Below, in pieces: positions 19,858-25,864 of a DNA stretch of 64,000 bases. The position numbers and the translations under genes are program-made. The DNA is from Salinisphaera sp. LB1 (GTDB lineage Bacteria; Pseudomonadota; Gammaproteobacteria; Nevskiales; Salinisphaeraceae): positions 2,356,001 to 2,420,000 of the forward strand of contig NZ_CP029488.1 in the NCBI RefSeq assembly GCF_003177035.1, written 5' to 3'. Every line of letters starts with the position of its first letter. The first letter of the stretch is position 1. The notes under the pieces are model-generated. The model had not been told where the DNA came from and did no database searches. It worked only from the letters and a program-made list of their open reading frames with translations.

Positions 19858-21252
19858 ATGACCGATGGCGCCTGGCTTACGCTGACGATTGCTTTTCTGG
19901 TTGGCGCCGCACTTGGCGGGCTGATAGCCCTGCTGGCGGCACGCGCAAACCGTGCGGGGCTGGCTTCGAAGTTCGAGGCGCTCGAACGCGATTATGCGGC
20001 ACGCGGCGCCTCGCTGGAAAAAGCCCATGCCGAACTGGCGAGTGCGCGTAGCGAGAATGCGCGTCTCGCCGAACGGATCGAGGCCGAGCAGCGTCACGCC
20101 AAGGACAAGCTGGCCACACTGACCGAAGCGCGCGAGCAGATGGCGCACCAGTTCAAAACACTCTCGCAGGAGATCCTCGACGAAAAGGCCAAGGCCTTCA
20201 ACGAATCCAGCAAGGCCAGCCTGGAGCCGTTGATCAATCCGCTGCGCGAGCACATCGGTCGCTTCGAGAAACAGGTGAAGGAAGCCTATGACGTCGAGAA
20301 CCGGCAGCGTTCCGCGCTCGCGCAGCAGATCAGGATGCTGGAAGAGTCGAACAAGGCGATCGCCGAGGATGCGACCAATCTGACCAAGGCGCTGCGCGGC
20401 GAGTCCAAGACCCAGGGCAATTGGGGCGAGATGATCCTGGAAACCGTGCTGGAGCGCTCCGGGCTGGAAAAAGGTGTGCAGTACGAGACGCAGTTTCATA
20501 GCACCACCGAAGAGGGCAAACGCCAGTTGCCGGATGCGGTGGTGCATCTGCCGGAGTCGCGCTCGCTCGTGATCGACTCCAAGGTCTCGCTCACGGCCTA
20601 TCTTCGGGTGCAGGAAGCCGAGGATGAAAACGCGCGCCGGACCGCACTGGCCGAGCATATCGCCTCCGTGCGGCGCCATCTCAAGCAGTTGTCGGAAAAA
20701 AAGTATCAAGGCATCGACGCGATTCGGACACTGGATTACGTGTTCATGTTCGTGCCGTCGGAGGCGGCCTATGTCGAGGCGCTGCGCGGCGATTTCGGTC
20801 TCCAGCGCGAAGCGCTCGATGCCAACATCGCACTGGTGTCGCCGACCACGCTCATGCCGATGCTGCGCGCGGTGGAAAATCTGTGGCGGCTGGACAAGCA
20901 GGAGAAGAACGCCGAGGCCATTGCCGATCGCGCGGGCGCGCTGTACGACAAGTTCGTCGGTTTCATCGGCGATCTGGACAAGGTCTCGCGCAATCTGGAG
21001 ACGGTGAACAAGTCGTTTGCCGATGCCCGCAACAAGCTCACCGACGGGCGCGGCAACCTCGTTCGCCAGGCGGAGATGCTGCGGGCGATGGGCGCCAACA
21101 CCTCGAAACAGGCGCCCAAGGCCTGGCGCGAAGCCGGCCAGCTCGGCGCCGACCGGGCGGCCGCGGAGGCGGACGATCCCGATGCCGCGCTGGATCGGCT
21201 CGAGGCGGATGAGGCGATCAGCGACGACGAAACCACGGGAGCCAAGTCATGA
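19858..21252 (+). CDS. rmuC: DNA recombination protein RmuC
   Basis: A 464-residue protein. It has an N-terminal membrane anchor (AWLTLTIAFLVGAALGGLIALL), a long coiled coil to about residue 170, and the RmuC nuclease-like domain with GNWGEMILETVLERSGL, VVHLPESRSLVIDSKVSL and DYVFMFVPSEAAYVEAL. RmuC limits inversion between short inverted repeats and is thought to be a nuclease of the restriction-endonuclease fold. The ATG at 19858 gives the standard N-terminus, and an upstream extension is non-homologous. Its stop overlaps the next gene start by four bases (ATGA). Confidence 0.95.
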   Translation: MTDGAWLTLTIAFLVGAALGGLIALLAARANRAGLASKFEALERDYAARGASLEKAHAELASARSENARLAERIEAEQRHAKDKLATLTEAREQMAHQFKTLSQEILDEKAKAFNESSKASLEPLINPLREHIGRFEKQVKEAYDVENRQRSALAQQIRMLEESNKAIAEDATNLTKALRGESKTQGNWGEMILETVLERSGLEKGVQYETQFHSTTEEGKRQLPDAVVHLPESRSLVIDSKVSLTAYLRVQEAEDENARRTALAEHIASVRRHLKQLSEKKYQGIDAIRTLDYVFMFVPSEAAYVEALRGDFGLQREALDANIALVSPTTLMPMLRAVENLWRLDKQEKNAEAIADRAGALYDKFVGFIGDLDKVSRNLETVNKSFADARNKLTDGRGNLVRQAEMLRAMGANTSKQAPKAWREAGQLGADRAAAEADDPDAALDRLEADEAISDDETTGAKS

Positions 21253-22355
21253 GTCCATCCATCCGCGAACGACTCGCCGCCCTGCGCGAATCCATGCCGC
21301 CGATCGACCCGGGCGAGGCCGATCGTCTGCGTGCGGCCGGCGCCTGGCTGGTCGATATTCGCGAAGCCGATGAGATCGCGCAGGGCACGCCGGTGGGCGC
21401 CAGGCCGCTCGGGCGTGGTTTTCTGGAAATGCGGCTGGAATCCGAGGGCGCGGCGGCCGACGACACGATCCTGTTGCTGTGCGCTTCCGGCTCGCGTTCG
21501 TTGCTGGCCGCCGAGCAACTGCGTCAGCTCGGTTATACCGACGTGCGCTCGGTGGCGGGCGGCTTCGATGCCTGGAAGGATGCCGGCTTGGCCTTCGAGA
21601 CGCCGGCCATGCTCGATGCCGGCGATCGCGCGCGTTACGCACGCCAGCTCACCTTGCCCGAGGTCGGCGAGGCCGGGCAGTCGAAGCTGCGCGATGCCCG
21701 GGTGCTGGTGATCGGCGCTGGCGGGCTGGGCAGCCCGGCCGCGTTGTATCTGGCCGCGGCCGGGGTGGGGCATCTGGCGATCGTCGATCACGACACGGTC
21801 GATCGCTCCAACCTGCATCGCCAGACCTTGCATCGGGATGCCAGCGTCGGCCAGCCCAAGGTGCGTTCGGCGCATGCCACGCTCACCGCGCTCAATCCGG
21901 CGATCGAGATCGCGCCCGTTCAGGCACGGGTTTCGGCCGATAACGCGGCGGAACTGGTGGCGGGCTATGATCTGGTGATCGACGGCTCGGACAATTTCGC
22001 CGCGCGCTATGCGATCAACGACGCCTGCGTGGCCGCGGGCATCGCGCTGGTCTACGGCGCGGTCGAGCGCTTCAATGGTCAGGTCGGGGTGTTCCCGGCC
22101 GGTGGACGCCCCTGTTATCGCTGCCTGTTCGCCGAGGCACCCCCGGCCGGCAGCGCGCCGACCTGTGCCGAGGCCGGCGTGATCGGCGCGGTGCCCGGCC
22201 TCGTGGGCACGCTGCAGGCACTGGAAGCGATCAAGTTATTGGTCGGCATGGCCGATACGCTGTCCGGCAAGCTGCTGTCGCTGGATGTGCGAACACAGCG
22301 TTGGCGCACGATGTCGCTGCCGGCCAATCCCCGCTGCCCGGTTTGTGCGGGCTGA
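21249..22355 (+). CDS. Rhodanese-MoeB/ThiF fusion, molybdopterin-synthase sulfurylase-type enzyme
   Basis: A 368-residue two-domain protein. Residues ~10-115 are a rhodanese with active Cys78 (LLLCASGSRS) and the terminal GGFDAWKDAGL. Residues ~125-368 are an adenylyltransferase with nucleotide loop GAGGLGSPAALYL, catalytic TCAEAGV (Cys306) and a zinc site formed by Cys289/Cys292 and Cys363/Cys366. It should adenylate the C-terminal glycine of a sulfur carrier (MoaD- or ThiS-like) and could supply sulfur by its own rhodanese. In eukaryotic MOCS3 the rhodanese is C-terminal, so the order here is reversed. No MoaD or ThiS gene lies nearby. Confidence 0.92.
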   Translation: MSPSIRERLAALRESMPPIDPGEADRLRAAGAWLVDIREADEIAQGTPVGARPLGRGFLEMRLESEGAAADDTILLLCASGSRSLLAAEQLRQLGYTDVRSVAGGFDAWKDAGLAFETPAMLDAGDRARYARQLTLPEVGEAGQSKLRDARVLVIGAGGLGSPAALYLAAAGVGHLAIVDHDTVDRSNLHRQTLHRDASVGQPKVRSAHATLTALNPAIEIAPVQARVSADNAAELVAGYDLVIDGSDNFAARYAINDACVAAGIALVYGAVERFNGQVGVFPAGGRPCYRCLFAEAPPAGSAPTCAEAGVIGAVPGLVGTLQALEAIKLLVGMADTLSGKLLSLDVRTQRWRTMSLPANPRCPVCAG

Positions 22356-22459: not shown

Positions 22460-24169
22460 ATGCCGGCTTTCTATTTGATCGTGATAACGCTGGGGGCCTT
22501 TTACCTGGGCTACCGGTTCTACTCCCGCTATCTGGCCGAGCGCGTCTATGCGCTCGACCCGAACTTCAAGACCCCGTCGCACGAGTTTTCGGACGGGGTC
22601 GATTTCGTACCGACCAACAAACACATCCTGCTGGGCCACCACTTCACGGCGGTGGCCGGGGCGGCCCCGATCGTCGGGCCGGCGATTGCGGTCTACTGGG
22701 GCTGGCTGCCGGCGATCGCCTGGGTGATTCTGGGCACGATATTCGGCGCCGGCGTGCACGATTTCGGCGCCATCGTTACTTCCGCGCGCAACCGCGGCCA
22801 GAATATCGGCACATTGTCCGGCAAGGTCATCAGCGCGCGCGCCAGCACGCTGTTCCTGCTGATCATCTTCTTCCTGCTGACGCTGGTGAACGCGGTGTTC
22901 GGCGTGGTCATGGCGATCCTGTTCGAAGCACACCCGGGCTCGGTGATCCCGGCCGTGATCGTGATCCCGATCGCGATGTGCATCGGCCAGTGGGTGTATC
23001 GCATGAAGGGCGCGGTGCTCATTCCGTCGATTATCGGGCTAATTCTGTTGTATGCGGCGATCCCGATCGGCCAGATGTACCCGATTCATGTCGACGGCCT
23101 GGCTCACCTGGTGGGGCTGTCGGTGCGCACGACCTGGGTAATCCTGATTTTCGCCTACACCTGGTTCGCCTCGCGCCTGCCGGTGTGGTTGCTGCTGCAG
23201 CCGCGCGACTACATCAACGGTCAGCAGCTGCTGGTCGCGCTCGCGGTGATCTTCGCCGGCGTGATCGTCGGTTGGGACCAGATCACGGCGCCGGCGGTGA
23301 ACCACGTGGCCGAGGGCACCAGGCAGTGGTTCCCGTATCTGTTCATCACCATCGCCTGCGGGGCGATCTCGGGCTTCCATAGTCTGGTGGCCTCCGGCAC
23401 CACGTCCAAACAGATCGACAAGGAAACCGATGCCCGCTACATCGGCTACTGCGGGGCGCTGGGCGAGGGTTCGCTGGCACTGGCCGCGATCCTGGCCTGC
23501 ACCGCCGGGCTGGGTTCGGCGGCAGACTGGAACACGGCCTATTCCAGCTTCGGTGCGGCGTCAGGCGGGGCGCTCGGGCATTTCGTCAACGGTGTGGGTC
23601 ATTTTCTGGCCAATCTCGGCATCGATGCCCAGCTGGGCGCTTCGTTTGCCGTGGTCGTGGTGGTGACCTTCGCCGGTACGACCATGGATACCGGCGTGCG
23701 CCTGCAGCGCTACATTCTGGAAGAGATCGCCGAACTGGCCGGCTTTCGGGCCCTGGTTGGCAAGACCACCATCCTGACCACGCTGGCCGTGCTGATTCCG
23801 TTGGCGCTGGCCCTGGTGCCGGGAGGCAACGGTGCCGGCGGTAAGGGCTTTGCCTTCGGCCAGCTCTGGACACTGTTCGGCACCACCAACCAGCTCACGG
23901 CGGGGCTGGCCCTGTCGGTAATCAGCGTCTGGGTGATGTCGCGCAATCGCAATCCGCTGGCTGCGATCGTGCCGCTGACCTTCCTGCTGTTCATGACCAG
24001 CTGGGCGCTGGTGCTCAACCTCGTGTCCTTTCTCAAGGAAGGCAGCTGGATGTTGTTGATCATGGATGCCGGGATCGCGGTACTCACCGCCTGGCTCATC
24101 GTGGAAGCGGTCACCGCGCTCAATCGCCAGCGTGGCGAGCGTCGTGCCGAGGTGCCCAGCGAGGCATGA
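22460..24169 (+). CDS. cstA: Carbon starvation protein A family transporter (CstA)
   Basis: A 569-residue polytopic membrane protein. CstA hallmarks are FVPTNKHILLGHHFTAVAGAA near the N-terminus, GTIFGAGVHDFGAI, GFHSLVASGTTSKQI and FAGTTMDTGVRLQRYILEE, and late FGTTNQLTAGLAL. CstA proteins import pyruvate or peptides under carbon limitation. It is shorter than E. coli CstA (~700 residues), like the forms found in actinobacteria. The ATG at 22460 follows GGGGGACC, and an extra 15 codons upstream do not look conserved. It is the first gene of a four-gene operon whose other members are poorly understood; its stop overlaps the next start (ATGA). Confidence 0.93.
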   Translation: MPAFYLIVITLGAFYLGYRFYSRYLAERVYALDPNFKTPSHEFSDGVDFVPTNKHILLGHHFTAVAGAAPIVGPAIAVYWGWLPAIAWVILGTIFGAGVHDFGAIVTSARNRGQNIGTLSGKVISARASTLFLLIIFFLLTLVNAVFGVVMAILFEAHPGSVIPAVIVIPIAMCIGQWVYRMKGAVLIPSIIGLILLYAAIPIGQMYPIHVDGLAHLVGLSVRTTWVILIFAYTWFASRLPVWLLLQPRDYINGQQLLVALAVIFAGVIVGWDQITAPAVNHVAEGTRQWFPYLFITIACGAISGFHSLVASGTTSKQIDKETDARYIGYCGALGEGSLALAAILACTAGLGSAADWNTAYSSFGAASGGALGHFVNGVGHFLANLGIDAQLGASFAVVVVVTFAGTTMDTGVRLQRYILEEIAELAGFRALVGKTTILTTLAVLIPLALALVPGGNGAGGKGFAFGQLWTLFGTTNQLTAGLALSVISVWVMSRNRNPLAAIVPLTFLLFMTSWALVLNLVSFLKEGSWMLLIMDAGIAVLTAWLIVEAVTALNRQRGERRAEVPSEA

Positions 24170-24591
24170 GCATCGGTACCGGACATCGCTTGATCCTCGT
24201 TCGCGAGCAGGACGCCCAGCACAGCGGCTCGGGCTGCTGCGGGCGGCTCGGTGAGGCGCATACCGATCTCGGCGGCGCGGCCGACTACGCGCACAGCCGG
24301 GCGGTGATGGAATCGGTCGGCATGGTCTACCGGCGCCTGCGCGACGCGGCGCCGGGATTGGTCATCGACGTGGTCGACCCACGCAATACGATCTGGTTGT
24401 ATCCGGCGGTCTGGCGCGCGTCGCGCCGGGCCGGACGCGGTGTCGGCGCCTCGCTGAAAAGCCTGTCGCGCGCGGGCGCGGCGGCCGCCATCGTGCTCGA
24501 CGGTGAGGTTTTGTACTCGGGCGCATTACCGGCGCCCGAAACGATTGTCGCCGCGGTGATGGCACAGTTGCACGATTCCCGCGCGGCCTGA
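24166..24591 (+). CDS. Uncharacterised 141-residue protein with vicinal cysteines (GCCG)
   Basis: The function is not recognised. The start overlaps the cstA stop by four bases, so the two are translationally coupled. After a first predicted strand (HRLILVRE) comes SGSGCCGRLG, with adjacent Cys24 and Cys25 where a thioredoxin-like fold would carry its active site. The C-terminal stretch AAIVLDGEVLYSGALPAPET followed by a helix also resembles the last strands of thioredoxin-like proteins. I infer a thiol-based redox or metal-binding protein serving CstA. No other cysteine is present. Confidence 0.7.
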   Translation: MSIGTGHRLILVREQDAQHSGSGCCGRLGEAHTDLGGAADYAHSRAVMESVGMVYRRLRDAAPGLVIDVVDPRNTIWLYPAVWRASRRAGRGVGASLKSLSRAGAAAAIVLDGEVLYSGALPAPETIVAAVMAQLHDSRAA

Positions 24592-24635
24592 GGGTCGCTC
24601 GCGGTTCCATTCCCGAAAGATCCAGCGGAGGCCGC

Positions 24636-24899
24636 ATGGCGGACGACAAGAGTCTCTGGCGCCGCATCAACGATTATCACGACCAGCTGTTCGTAGCCCC
24701 CTGGCGGGCGAGCATCGCGCGCGAGGCGCGCAAGGAAGAAGACGTGCTCGTGGCGCTGTTGTTCCTGGAAGCGCTGGGTATTCCCGGCCCTGCCGACTAC
24801 TTCGCGCTGGAGCTGTACCCGGATCTGATCGAGGCGTTTCATCGCTGGCACCAGCGTATGGGCATGGAGACATTCCCCGAAGCCGGGGTCTGCTGCTGA
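24636..24899 (+). CDS. CC-star protein (small protein ending in Cys-Cys)
   Basis: An 87-residue protein ending exactly in ...EAGVCC before the stop codon. It is mostly helical (LWRRINDYHDQLFVAPWRAS, then ALLFLEALGIPGPADYF) and acidic in the second half, with no signal peptide. Small proteins with this Cys-Cys terminus next to cstA and an ArsA-like ATPase match what databases call cory-CC-star protein, known mainly from corynebacteria and relatives. The role is unknown. A good GCGGAGG ribosome binding site precedes the ATG, and the stop shares a base with the ATPase start (TGATG), so stoichiometric production with the ATPase is likely. Confidence 0.8.
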   Translation: MADDKSLWRRINDYHDQLFVAPWRASIAREARKEEDVLVALLFLEALGIPGPADYFALELYPDLIEAFHRWHQRMGMETFPEAGVCC

Positions 24900-25864
24900 T
24901 GGCGCACAGTCACGCGCACGACGAACCCACGCGCTTCTTTCTGTTCGGCGGCAAGGGCGGGGTCGGCAAGACCACGTTGGCGGCAGCGCATGCGCTGCGC
25001 CTGGCTGCGGCCGGCGAGCGCACACTGCTGGTCTCCACCGATCCGGCCCATTCGGTGTCGGATCTGCTGGGCACGAAGCTGGGCGACGCGCCCACGGTTG
25101 CTGGCGACCATCTCTGGGCCATGGAGATCGACCCGACCGCCGACGCCGAGCGCTATGTGGATTCGATTCGCGAGGACGCGCGTGAGGCGGTCTCCAAAGC
25201 CGTGCTGCCGGCTCTGGATCGCCATCTCAAGCTCGCGGTGCAGGCACCGGGTACTGCGGAGTCGGCACTGTTCGATCGCTTCACTCGCCTGATGGATGCC
25301 GCGCCCGGCGATTACGACCGCATCGTGTTCGATACCGCGCCCACCGGGCACACGCTGCGGCTGCTCACCCTGCCGTCCATGCTGGGCGCCTGGGTCGAAG
25401 GGCTGGCCGGTCAGCGGGCCAAGGTGAACCGGCTGCAGGGCATGTGGCGGTCGATGGCCGGTGTGTCGGAGCCGGATCGCGACGATCGCGTGCTGTCGCG
25501 CCTGCGCCAGCGCGCCGAGCGGTTCGCGCGGGCACGCCAGCGTCTACATCGCGAGGCCGTGTTTCATCCCGTGTTACTGGCCGAGCGTCTGCCGATCGAG
25601 GAAACCGTGCGCCTCATCGCCCAGCTCGAAGAGTCGGACATTCCGGTCGGCGAACTGTTCGTCAATCGACTCTGGCCGGCGGGTACCGACAGCGCCTTCG
25701 TCGCCGAACGGGTGGCGCAGCAGAACGAATACCTGGACGAGATCCGCGAACGTTTCGCCTCGTACGCCTTGATCGAAGTAGCCCAGAGCGCTCGCGATAT
25801 CGTGGGCCGGGAACAGCTGGAACAACTGGCGGGCCAGCTGCCGGGGCCGAACATCGCGCCGTGA
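24899..25864 (+). CDS. ArsA/Get3-like ATPase without cysteines
   Basis: A 321-residue SIMIBI ATPase. The deviant P-loop is GGKGGVGKTT (signature Lys19), switch I is STDPAHSVSD (Asp48) and switch II is FDTAPTGHTLRLL (Asp145). This is the ArsA/Get3 single-domain layout. The protein has no cysteine at all, so it lacks the arsenite-binding cysteines of ArsA and the CxxC of Get3. The N-terminus is His-rich (HSHAHDE). It is coupled to the CC-star gene by a one-base overlap. Membrane-protein targeting for CstA, or delivery of a cofactor held by its Cys-Cys partners, are the two roles I consider; neither is demonstrated. Confidence 0.88.
   Translation: MAHSHAHDEPTRFFLFGGKGGVGKTTLAAAHALRLAAAGERTLLVSTDPAHSVSDLLGTKLGDAPTVAGDHLWAMEIDPTADAERYVDSIREDAREAVSKAVLPALDRHLKLAVQAPGTAESALFDRFTRLMDAAPGDYDRIVFDTAPTGHTLRLLTLPSMLGAWVEGLAGQRAKVNRLQGMWRSMAGVSEPDRDDRVLSRLRQRAERFARARQRLHREAVFHPVLLAERLPIEETVRLIAQLEESDIPVGELFVNRLWPAGTDSAFVAERVAQQNEYLDEIRERFASYALIEVAQSARDIVGREQLEQLAGQLPGPNIAP

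Follow-up and report, generated by a model that had tools for sequence, protein, structure and literature searches.

What does a CstA-type nutrient carrier gain from an ArsA/Get3-type ATPase and two small proteins with adjacent cysteines? The question is raised by a run of four genes in the halophilic bacterium Salinisphaera sp. LB1 (host genome of 4.14 Mb in a single contig), lying within the 64,000-nucleotide stretch of NZ_CP029488.1 analyzed here (hereinafter the window): cstA, a gene for a protein with a GCCG motif (hereinafter the GCCG protein), the gene for cory-CC-star (hereinafter CC-star), which ends in Cys-Cys, and a gene for a single-domain ATPase (Table 1). We tentatively favor, at a little under an even chance, a reading by analogy in which CC-star would be the small subunit of CstA, the ArsA-type ATPase would act on CstA through CC-star, and the GCCG protein would be an optional thiol or selenol helper. 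The three-gene CstA-CC-star-ArsA unit is widespread and already published, and CC-star is an existing NCBIfam family; what we add is the division of CC-star and YbdD between CstA subfamilies, the retention of CstA where the linkage has broken, and a predicted fold for the GCCG protein together with relatives in which its first cysteine codon is TGA. An earlier sequence-only reading of the window had the four open reading frames (ORFs), their junctions, the ribosome-binding-like site, and the placement of the cysteines right, and the conserved transporter-linked unit that it proposed is real.

Association of CstA, CC-star, and ArsA across genomes

CC-star matches the family NF041419 with 108.7 bits (curated cut-off 80). 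Starting from a CC-star alignment, we scanned GTDB contigs and obtained 593 stretches, of which 566 were confirmed as relatives and the best 80 of these 566 were used; further loci came from genome samples of the class (6/274) and phylum (7/398), of the Pseudomonadales, the order of the L064 genome (20 of 194 genomes), and of the class of Melghirimyces (22 of 200 genomes with 24 matches, of which 20 were taken, two duplicated earlier loci, and two were left out), as well as from three of six plasmids. The result is 138 loci with a CC-star ORF, or 128 distinct loci after removal of 10 repeats; L070 and L071 represent two strains with DNA identical over 230 bases. Two Bacillota loci outside the 128 (L235 and L236) also have cstA-CC-star-ArsA, the ArsA of L235 being in two pieces.

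An ArsA gene lies at most 600 bases after CC-star in 125 of the 128 distinct loci, follows a second cstA in two, and was not found in one (L011), while cstA is directly 5′ of CC-star in 117. The remaining upstream contexts comprise ten loci with an SNF-type sodium symporter, ratA, and rnfH, and a Gemmatimonadales contig (L060, 1-3099) that has no upstream room and carries the order CC-star, ArsA, cstA. The two loci with a second cstA, which separates CC-star from ArsA, are from Geomicrobium halophilum (L044, 7965-11209, where this copy reads as two pieces) and Natribacillus halophilus (L056, 7965-11119). Thus, the co-occurrence anticipated by the sequence-only reading holds widely for three of the four families, whereas the GCCG gene is far rarer (16 of the 128 loci), and "four-gene" does not describe the unit in general. 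By record title, the loci fall in six phyla, namely Pseudomonadota, Bacillota, Actinomycetota (Rubrobacter), Gemmatimonadota, Acidobacteriota, and Cyanobacteriota (a match in Haloferax volcanii is below the cut-off), and this recurrence of the three-gene order argues that the association is not due to chance. For CstA, ArsA, and CC-star alike, Salinisphaera and Rubrobacter are near neighbors despite belonging to separate phyla; therefore, the unit has traveled as a block. Two contigs labeled Endozoicomonas (L007) and Lysobacterales (L014) are Salinisphaera-like by these genes and their neighbors.

The claim that the system was undescribed has to be dropped. Castillo and Saier in 2010 reported 26 CstA-ArsA operons, 24 of them with a protein of about 90 residues, CstX (PMC2963123), and the window, with the same three genes and a single-domain ArsA of about their size (about 330 residues), falls within their operon definition. 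Idiomarina loihiensis, Pseudomonas stutzeri, and Psychrobacter appear in cluster 18 of that paper (PMC2963123), and in I. loihiensis (L073), Stutzerimonas stutzeri (L070), and Psychrobacter (L027, L076) the gene flanked by cstA and arsA is that of CC-star; accordingly, by position rather than by the paper's own sequence, we equate CstX with CC-star. The sections of the paper covered here describe no GCCG gene, and they give CstX as a single-transmembrane-segment protein that never occurs without cstA in its operon (PMC2963123), whereas the 138 CC-star ORFs have no transmembrane-grade stretch (top 19-residue mean hydropathy of 1.56) and ten of the 128 loci are unlinked. Beyond that paper, no work on this system was among the matches listed in our literature search, in which subscription journals lay mostly outside the coverage, and none came up that treated carbon starvation proteins together with arsenical pump-driving ATPases.

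The 2010 proposal gave CstX the task of coupling ATP hydrolysis to transport (PMC2963123): the ArsA homolog would energize CstA as ArsA does ArsB, with the link between ATPase and carrier provided by CC-star/CstX, so that a secondary carrier would become a primary one. We regard this as a real possibility, albeit a fairly unlikely one. It was founded on the 26 operons and on matching trees (PMC2963123), and it is consistent with the ArsA-cstA linkage and with the P-loop GKGGVGK[TS], present in all 133 rows of our ATPase alignment (the accompanying DTAP[TS]GHT motif is present in 129; 132 loci, with repeats kept and the window entered twice). However, E. coli CstA and YbdD import pyruvate as a system for which the available text names no ATPase part (PMC5847655). 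Furthermore, the protein that best tracks CstA is CC-star, not ArsA: over 52 loci, with no control for the organism tree, the partial rho of divergence is 0.53 for CC-star and CstA, 0.33 for ArsA and CC-star, and 0.27 for CstA and ArsA. CC-star and ArsA are also found apart from cstA in 10 of the 128 loci, unlike what is expected of a fixed pump subunit, though assembly in trans is possible.

These ten loci have a uniform order on one strand, SNF symporter-ratA-rnfH-CC-star-ArsA. A CstA search of nine of the ten genomes (that of L037 was left out) recovered CstA elsewhere in eight and none in one 2.6-Mb assembly. The eight unlinked CstAs form a single clade nested among the CC-star-linked rows (100% and 97% support), and the simplest reading of the ten loci is that CC-star and ArsA left cstA together and continue to serve CstA in trans. 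The assembly with no CstA found carries the symporter-type locus on a metagenome-derived contig labeled Klebsiella pneumoniae (L077, 5776-9232), a label that is probably wrong. The same loci might instead suggest that CC-star and ArsA are a general transporter module serving other carriers, with the symporter, confirmed by an SNF profile match, in the place of CstA; in one order sample, the seven symporters linked in this way were nearer to the query, one of the linked kind, than any other symporter of that sample. We consider this very improbable: among 15 other symporter loci lacking an adjacent CC-star, six have the same symporter divergently beside ratA, such that the symporter-ratA neighborhood is probably older than CC-star there, and in eight of the nine genomes searched a linked-clade CstA has been retained. 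Both findings weaken the idea that the symporter has truly replaced CstA, which we rejected. One of the genomes of those 15 symporter loci has a cstA-linked CC-star elsewhere.

CC-star, YbdD, and the ATPase

The CstA of the window matches PF02554 with 447 bits (gathering threshold 27) in two pieces (residues 2-352 and 406-560), and it scores 234 bits against a cut-off of 1188 for NF011590, the equivalog of the E. coli pyruvate symporter CstA; a sequence search of the PDB with it gave no match at E up to 1. In a CstA tree of 100 rows (a quick search with long branches flagged, two short CstAs dropped, and 59 of the 115 linked rows retained), the CstAs linked to DUF466, the family of E. coli YbdD (PF04328, also KCU-star), form one clade with 100% support in the Shimodaira-Hasegawa-like approximate likelihood ratio test. 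Those linked to CC-star, including that of the window, lie in another part of the tree together with five orphans. The genomes are partitioned likewise: among 274 Gammaproteobacteria, CstA occurs in 42, within which lie all 22 genomes with DUF466 and all six with CC-star, and none has both (hypergeometric 0.007, relatedness being ignored). DUF466 adjoins cstA in 20 of the 22 loci, and the other two genomes have CstA elsewhere. It is present in 3 of 86 distinct CC-star genomes (0/40 and 3/49 handles, three handles repeating a genome), in all three beside a separate, E. coli-type cstA. One genome (G856; loci L301, L307, L312, and L240) has both kinds, with a long cstA and DUF466, a CC-star-clade cstA, and CC-star/ArsA at a third place.

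The two small proteins are alike in position and ending: in E. coli, ybdD directly follows cstA and its product ends in RCC, as do 21 of the 22 DUF466 proteins seen here, the remaining one (L146) having Cys-Pro-Cys in place of Cys-Cys. All 138 CC-star ORFs (repeats kept) end in Cys-Cys, and H69 and H72 are invariant in a 65-row alignment. DUF466 proteins are reported to end in Cys-Cys or Cys-Sec, i.e., selenocysteine (PMC4607533); a selenocysteine-ended CC-star was looked for and none was seen among the 138. The E. coli system differs in that its CstA belongs to another subfamily, no ArsA gene adjoins cstA-ybdD, and no homology of YbdD to CC-star was detected. Pfam gave no match for CC-star, hence none to PF04328; a direct profile comparison with DUF466 reached an hhalign probability of 1.1 with the alignment limited to the RCC end, and we therefore rejected CC-star as a DUF466 homolog. 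A fold search with the CC-star model (pTM, the predicted template modeling score, of 0.41) gave four matches, the best at E 5.3. Most likely, by analogy, CC-star takes the place of YbdD, each going with a different CstA subfamily.

In E. coli, pyruvate uptake of a ybdD mutant falls to 20% of wild type, and the authors, with a caveat on indirect effects, treat CstA and YbdD as one system (PMC5847655). This need of E. coli CstA for a CC-ended partner, the cohesion of CC-star and ArsA when cstA is elsewhere, and the divergence of CC-star following that of CstA most closely together point to CC-star as the subunit connecting the ATPase to CstA. On the reading that we favor, the operon product would be a CstA-type uptake system for pyruvate or peptides, as in E. 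coli, with CstA as the membrane transporter and CC-star doing for this subfamily the job of YbdD. The ATPase, probably a homodimer, would act on CstA via CC-star, its ATP cycle loading, activating, or coupling the latter. The GCCG protein would be an optional thioredoxin-fold helper tied to cstA, whose reactive first cysteine might reduce or charge the thiols of the complex. The sequences themselves show the gene linkage, the choice of partner by CstA subfamily, the retained co-occurrence where that linkage is broken, the invariant Cys-Cys end, the intact ATPase motifs, and the TGA at the first GCCG cysteine of three relatives; we infer the physical interactions, the use of ATP, the insertion of selenocysteine, the roles of the cysteines, and the substrate alike.

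The ATPase itself matches TIGR00345 (TRC40/GET3/ArsA) with 255 bits (cut-off 135) as well as PF02374 and, in the window, carries the motifs GKGGVGKT and DTAPTGHT. It does not reach TIGR04291, the arsenical pump ArsA (148.5 versus 650 bits), and corresponds to one ATPase half. The sequence-only reading had taken its lack of cysteine as a special clue. Across 132 ATPases, no alignment column has cysteine in more than 12%, 49 have no cysteine at all, and none has a CxxC motif; by sequence, the absence of cysteine is ordinary among single-domain ArsAs, and according to the 2010 paper as well, single-domain forms do not conserve any of the three cysteines of ArsA (PMC2963123).

The nearest solved chains are ATPase ARSA1 (5zme), single-domain chains named arsenical pump-driving ATPase (3zq6, 3ug6), and ArsA, and most of the full-length single-domain PDB matches found by sequence bear the names ATPase GET3 or ASNA1. 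Get3/TRC40 has the single-domain architecture and the P-loop and DTAP motifs in common with the window ATPase. The GET3 and ASNA1 names would suit a Get3-like role in which the ATPase brings CstA or CC-star to the membrane and takes no part in transport. We hold such targeting to be improbable. The CxxC zinc site is a feature of Get3, whereas none of the 132 ATPases of these loci has it, and the genes that accompany the ATPase encode a carrier and a small, soluble protein. The operon encodes no tail-anchored client and CC-star has no transmembrane-grade stretch, although the 2010 paper has it as a single-segment protein (PMC2963123).

The GCCG protein and its TGA-bearing relatives

Homologs of the GCCG protein were recovered in 16 of the 128 loci, namely 11 Salinisphaera-like loci (window included), two in Rubrobacter, and three in Bacillota. 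All 13 homologs of the first two groups carry GCCG, and the pair Cys24-Cys25 is invariant in a 12-row alignment of Cys-Cys relatives from CC-star loci. In a Melghirimyces locus (L316, 5480-7651), a second cstA is followed by a Cys-Cys GCCG gene with neither CC-star nor ArsA in 16 kb, which ties the GCCG protein to cstA and not to the ATPase.

Neither Pfam nor NCBIfam gives a match for the GCCG protein of the window at E up to 0.01, its best match in a PDB sequence search is at E 0.63, and a plasmid search with it gave nothing useful. Its model (mean predicted local distance difference test score, pLDDT, of 80.2; pTM 0.74) has the order strand-helix-strand-helix-helix-strand-strand-helix, with the cysteine loop (residues 19-37) below pLDDT 50 and hence unreliable. 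The first three Foldseek ranks against the PDB, none significant, are a thioredoxin (E 0.10) and ArsD twice (E 0.11 and 0.24), and a viral fold library places thioredoxins first (best E 0.039). Sub-threshold profile matches of the homologs are of the same kind (Thioredoxin_3, E 0.16; ArsE-type thioredoxin-like, E 0.022; the ArsD-related VcpD, E 0.018). ArsD is absent from the Pfam matches of 12 family members at E up to 10, and the best ArsD-related NCBIfam match has 15 bits against a cut-off of 90. On the model, a thioredoxin-like fold is predicted. Its topology fits the ArsD-type layout, with vicinal cysteines after strand 1, to the extent that these Foldseek values and the low-confidence cysteine loop allow.

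The three Bacillota homologs of the CC-star loci (L259, 6173-6607; L262, 4371-4784; L093, 5600-5968) have one in-frame TGA each, exactly at the position of Cys24, with a Cys codon next and homology on both sides. That they are shortened, cysteine-less proteins proved wrong, since reading upstream shows the pair as TGA-Cys; an annotated Cytobacillus GCCG gene starts 3′ of the TGA. It is unlikely that chance would put a stop at this one codon in all three genes; selenocysteine is the natural interpretation, and the first GCCG cysteine is probably selenocysteine (GUCG) in these three. With this, the view of the sequence-only reading that the cysteine pairs matter has gained support. A hairpin resembling a selenocysteine insertion sequence (SECIS) is expected 16-37 nucleotides after a TGA of this kind, with a G at the loop start. 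In L259, L262, and L093, hairpins of 9, 7, and 7 pairs occur 20-24 nucleotides after the TGA with a G within the first two loop bases, and three Cys homologs have hairpins of 5-6 pairs with no excess over shuffles. Rfam gave no SECIS match at the TGA sites, and a search of plasmids with E. coli SelB did not place the Cytobacillus plasmid among the best 60 of 466 matching records. A table of 119 prokaryotic selenoprotein families (Table 1 of PMC13188914) names none for CstA and holds one GUxG family, the unnamed NF049953, which we rejected as the identity of this one as it matches neither the GCCG protein nor its TGA-Cys homologs at E up to 1. In the part of that survey covered here, thioredoxin-like folds with selenocysteine beside or near cysteine are common (PMC13188914), a trait that the GUCG forms would share. 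By title, no paper on this subject was among the matches listed in a search for selenoproteins and CstA.

A comparable system is the ArsA-ArsB-ArsD arsenite pump, with which the operon shares the ATPase family, the carrier-plus-ATPase design, and, in the predicted topology of the GCCG protein, some likeness to ArsD; it differs in that the ATPase is single-domain and cysteine-free and the GCCG protein falls under every family cut-off. Arsenic resistance as such was set aside, no ars genes (arsB, acr3, arsR) being named around three annotated plasmid operons. Along the lines of the sequence-only reading, the GCCG protein and CC-star might hold a thiol-bound metal or metalloid, persulfide, or other cofactor that the ATPase helps to pass on, much as ArsD passes arsenite to ArsA. 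The invariant Cys-Cys of both small proteins, H69 and H72 of CC-star, the TGA at Cys24 of the three homologs, ArsD at Foldseek ranks 2 and 3, and the sub-threshold VcpD and ArsE-type matches would all accord with this. On balance, such a carrier role is unlikely, as the fold and family matches all fall short of significance or cut-off, the GCCG protein was not found in 112 of the 128 loci and can pair with cstA where CC-star and ArsA are missing (L316), and the ATPase has no conserved cysteine to take a ligand.

As for the small proteins generally, three families not known to be related, DUF466, CC-star, and GCCG/GUCG, are linked to cstA and have adjacent Cys-Cys or Cys/Sec, and the probable selenocysteine in the GCCG family along with that reported in DUF466 suggests that thiol or selenol chemistry matters for CstA carriers. 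A broader and doubtful extension is that CstA carriers work by vicinal thiol/selenol chemistry, with each of the three small families switching or charging its own CstA subfamily, the ArsA/Get3 ATPase doing the charging in the CC-star branch, and GCCG/GUCG constituting a new selenoprotein family. Were this true, it would amount to a redox- or metal-gated, ATP-charged nutrient carrier. The occurrence of two unrelated CC-ended proteins for two CstA subfamilies and of an apparent Cys-to-Sec swap in the third family points to thiol chemistry at the carrier, and bears on why carriers that import pyruvate and peptides need a tiny CC-ended partner; if the use of ATP were confirmed, the system would join the carriers that an ArsA-type ATPase drives or controls.

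Returning to CC-star as a CstA subunit through which the ATPase acts, with a thiol or selenol helper, several observations weigh against this scheme. First, our loci were collected via CC-star, which favors adjacency and says nothing of how often CstA or ArsA have these neighbors, and the divergence correlation over the 52 loci has no organism-tree control. Second, partners are not universal: 14 of the 42 CstA genomes of the class sample have neither DUF466 nor CC-star (nine neighborhoods checked; G174, G200, and G251 fell outside the check, and G013 and G070 are cut at contig ends), and in one contig of Salinisphaera (L011), CC-star is present but no ArsA was found within the 1993 bases covered. 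Third, CC-star and DUF466 have no detectable kinship, so that a common function is an analogy. In E. coli itself, moreover, protection from fluoropyruvate is lower in the ybdD than in the cstA mutant (0.61 versus 0.96; PMC5847655), and the main text of a 2020 paper on E. coli CstA leaves YbdD unmentioned (PMC7730263). Finally, on the selenocysteine side, the TGA hairpins are modest, being equaled in 61, 196, and 440 of 2000 shuffles (combined p=0.023), and a scan of six loci found no tRNA.

Layout of the Salinisphaera locus

Table 1. Features of the cstA operon in the window (coordinates counted from the first base of the window).
Feature	Position	Strand	Basis
cstA, 569-aa CstA-family transporter of the CC-star-linked subfamily	22460..24169	+	PF02554; position in CstA tree
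GCCG protein gene, 141 aa, predicted thioredoxin-like fold (ArsD-like topology), optional fourth member	24166..24591	+	homologs and model
Cys24-Cys25 codons of the GCCG motif	24235..24240	+	sequence
GGAGG, ribosome-binding-like site for CC-star, ATG four bases on	24627..24631	+	sequence
cory-CC-star (CstX), 87 aa, Cys-Cys end	24636..24899	+	NF041419 match
Cys86-Cys87 codons at the CC-star end	24891..24896	+	sequence; invariant in 65-row alignment
Single-domain ArsA/Get3-type ATPase, 321 aa, without cysteine	24899..25864	+	TIGR00345 match

The genes are closely packed: cstA and the GCCG gene overlap by four bases (ATGA), a gap of 44 bases precedes CC-star, and CC-star overlaps the ATPase gene by one base. 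Cysteines number four in CstA and none in the ATPase, and are at 24-25 in the GCCG protein and 86-87 in CC-star. The unit seems to end with arsA, since the next gene 3′ of it recurs in just 4 of the ten loci L007-L016.

Upstream of cstA, rmuC and a gene for a rhodanese-MoeB fusion (19858-22355 of the window) are the same in all ten of these loci and in none of L017-L019. At L011 (5062-8040, the same DNA as L006), the GCCG frame is broken near its end, and the place of ArsA after CC-star is taken by an unrelated 309-residue ORF.

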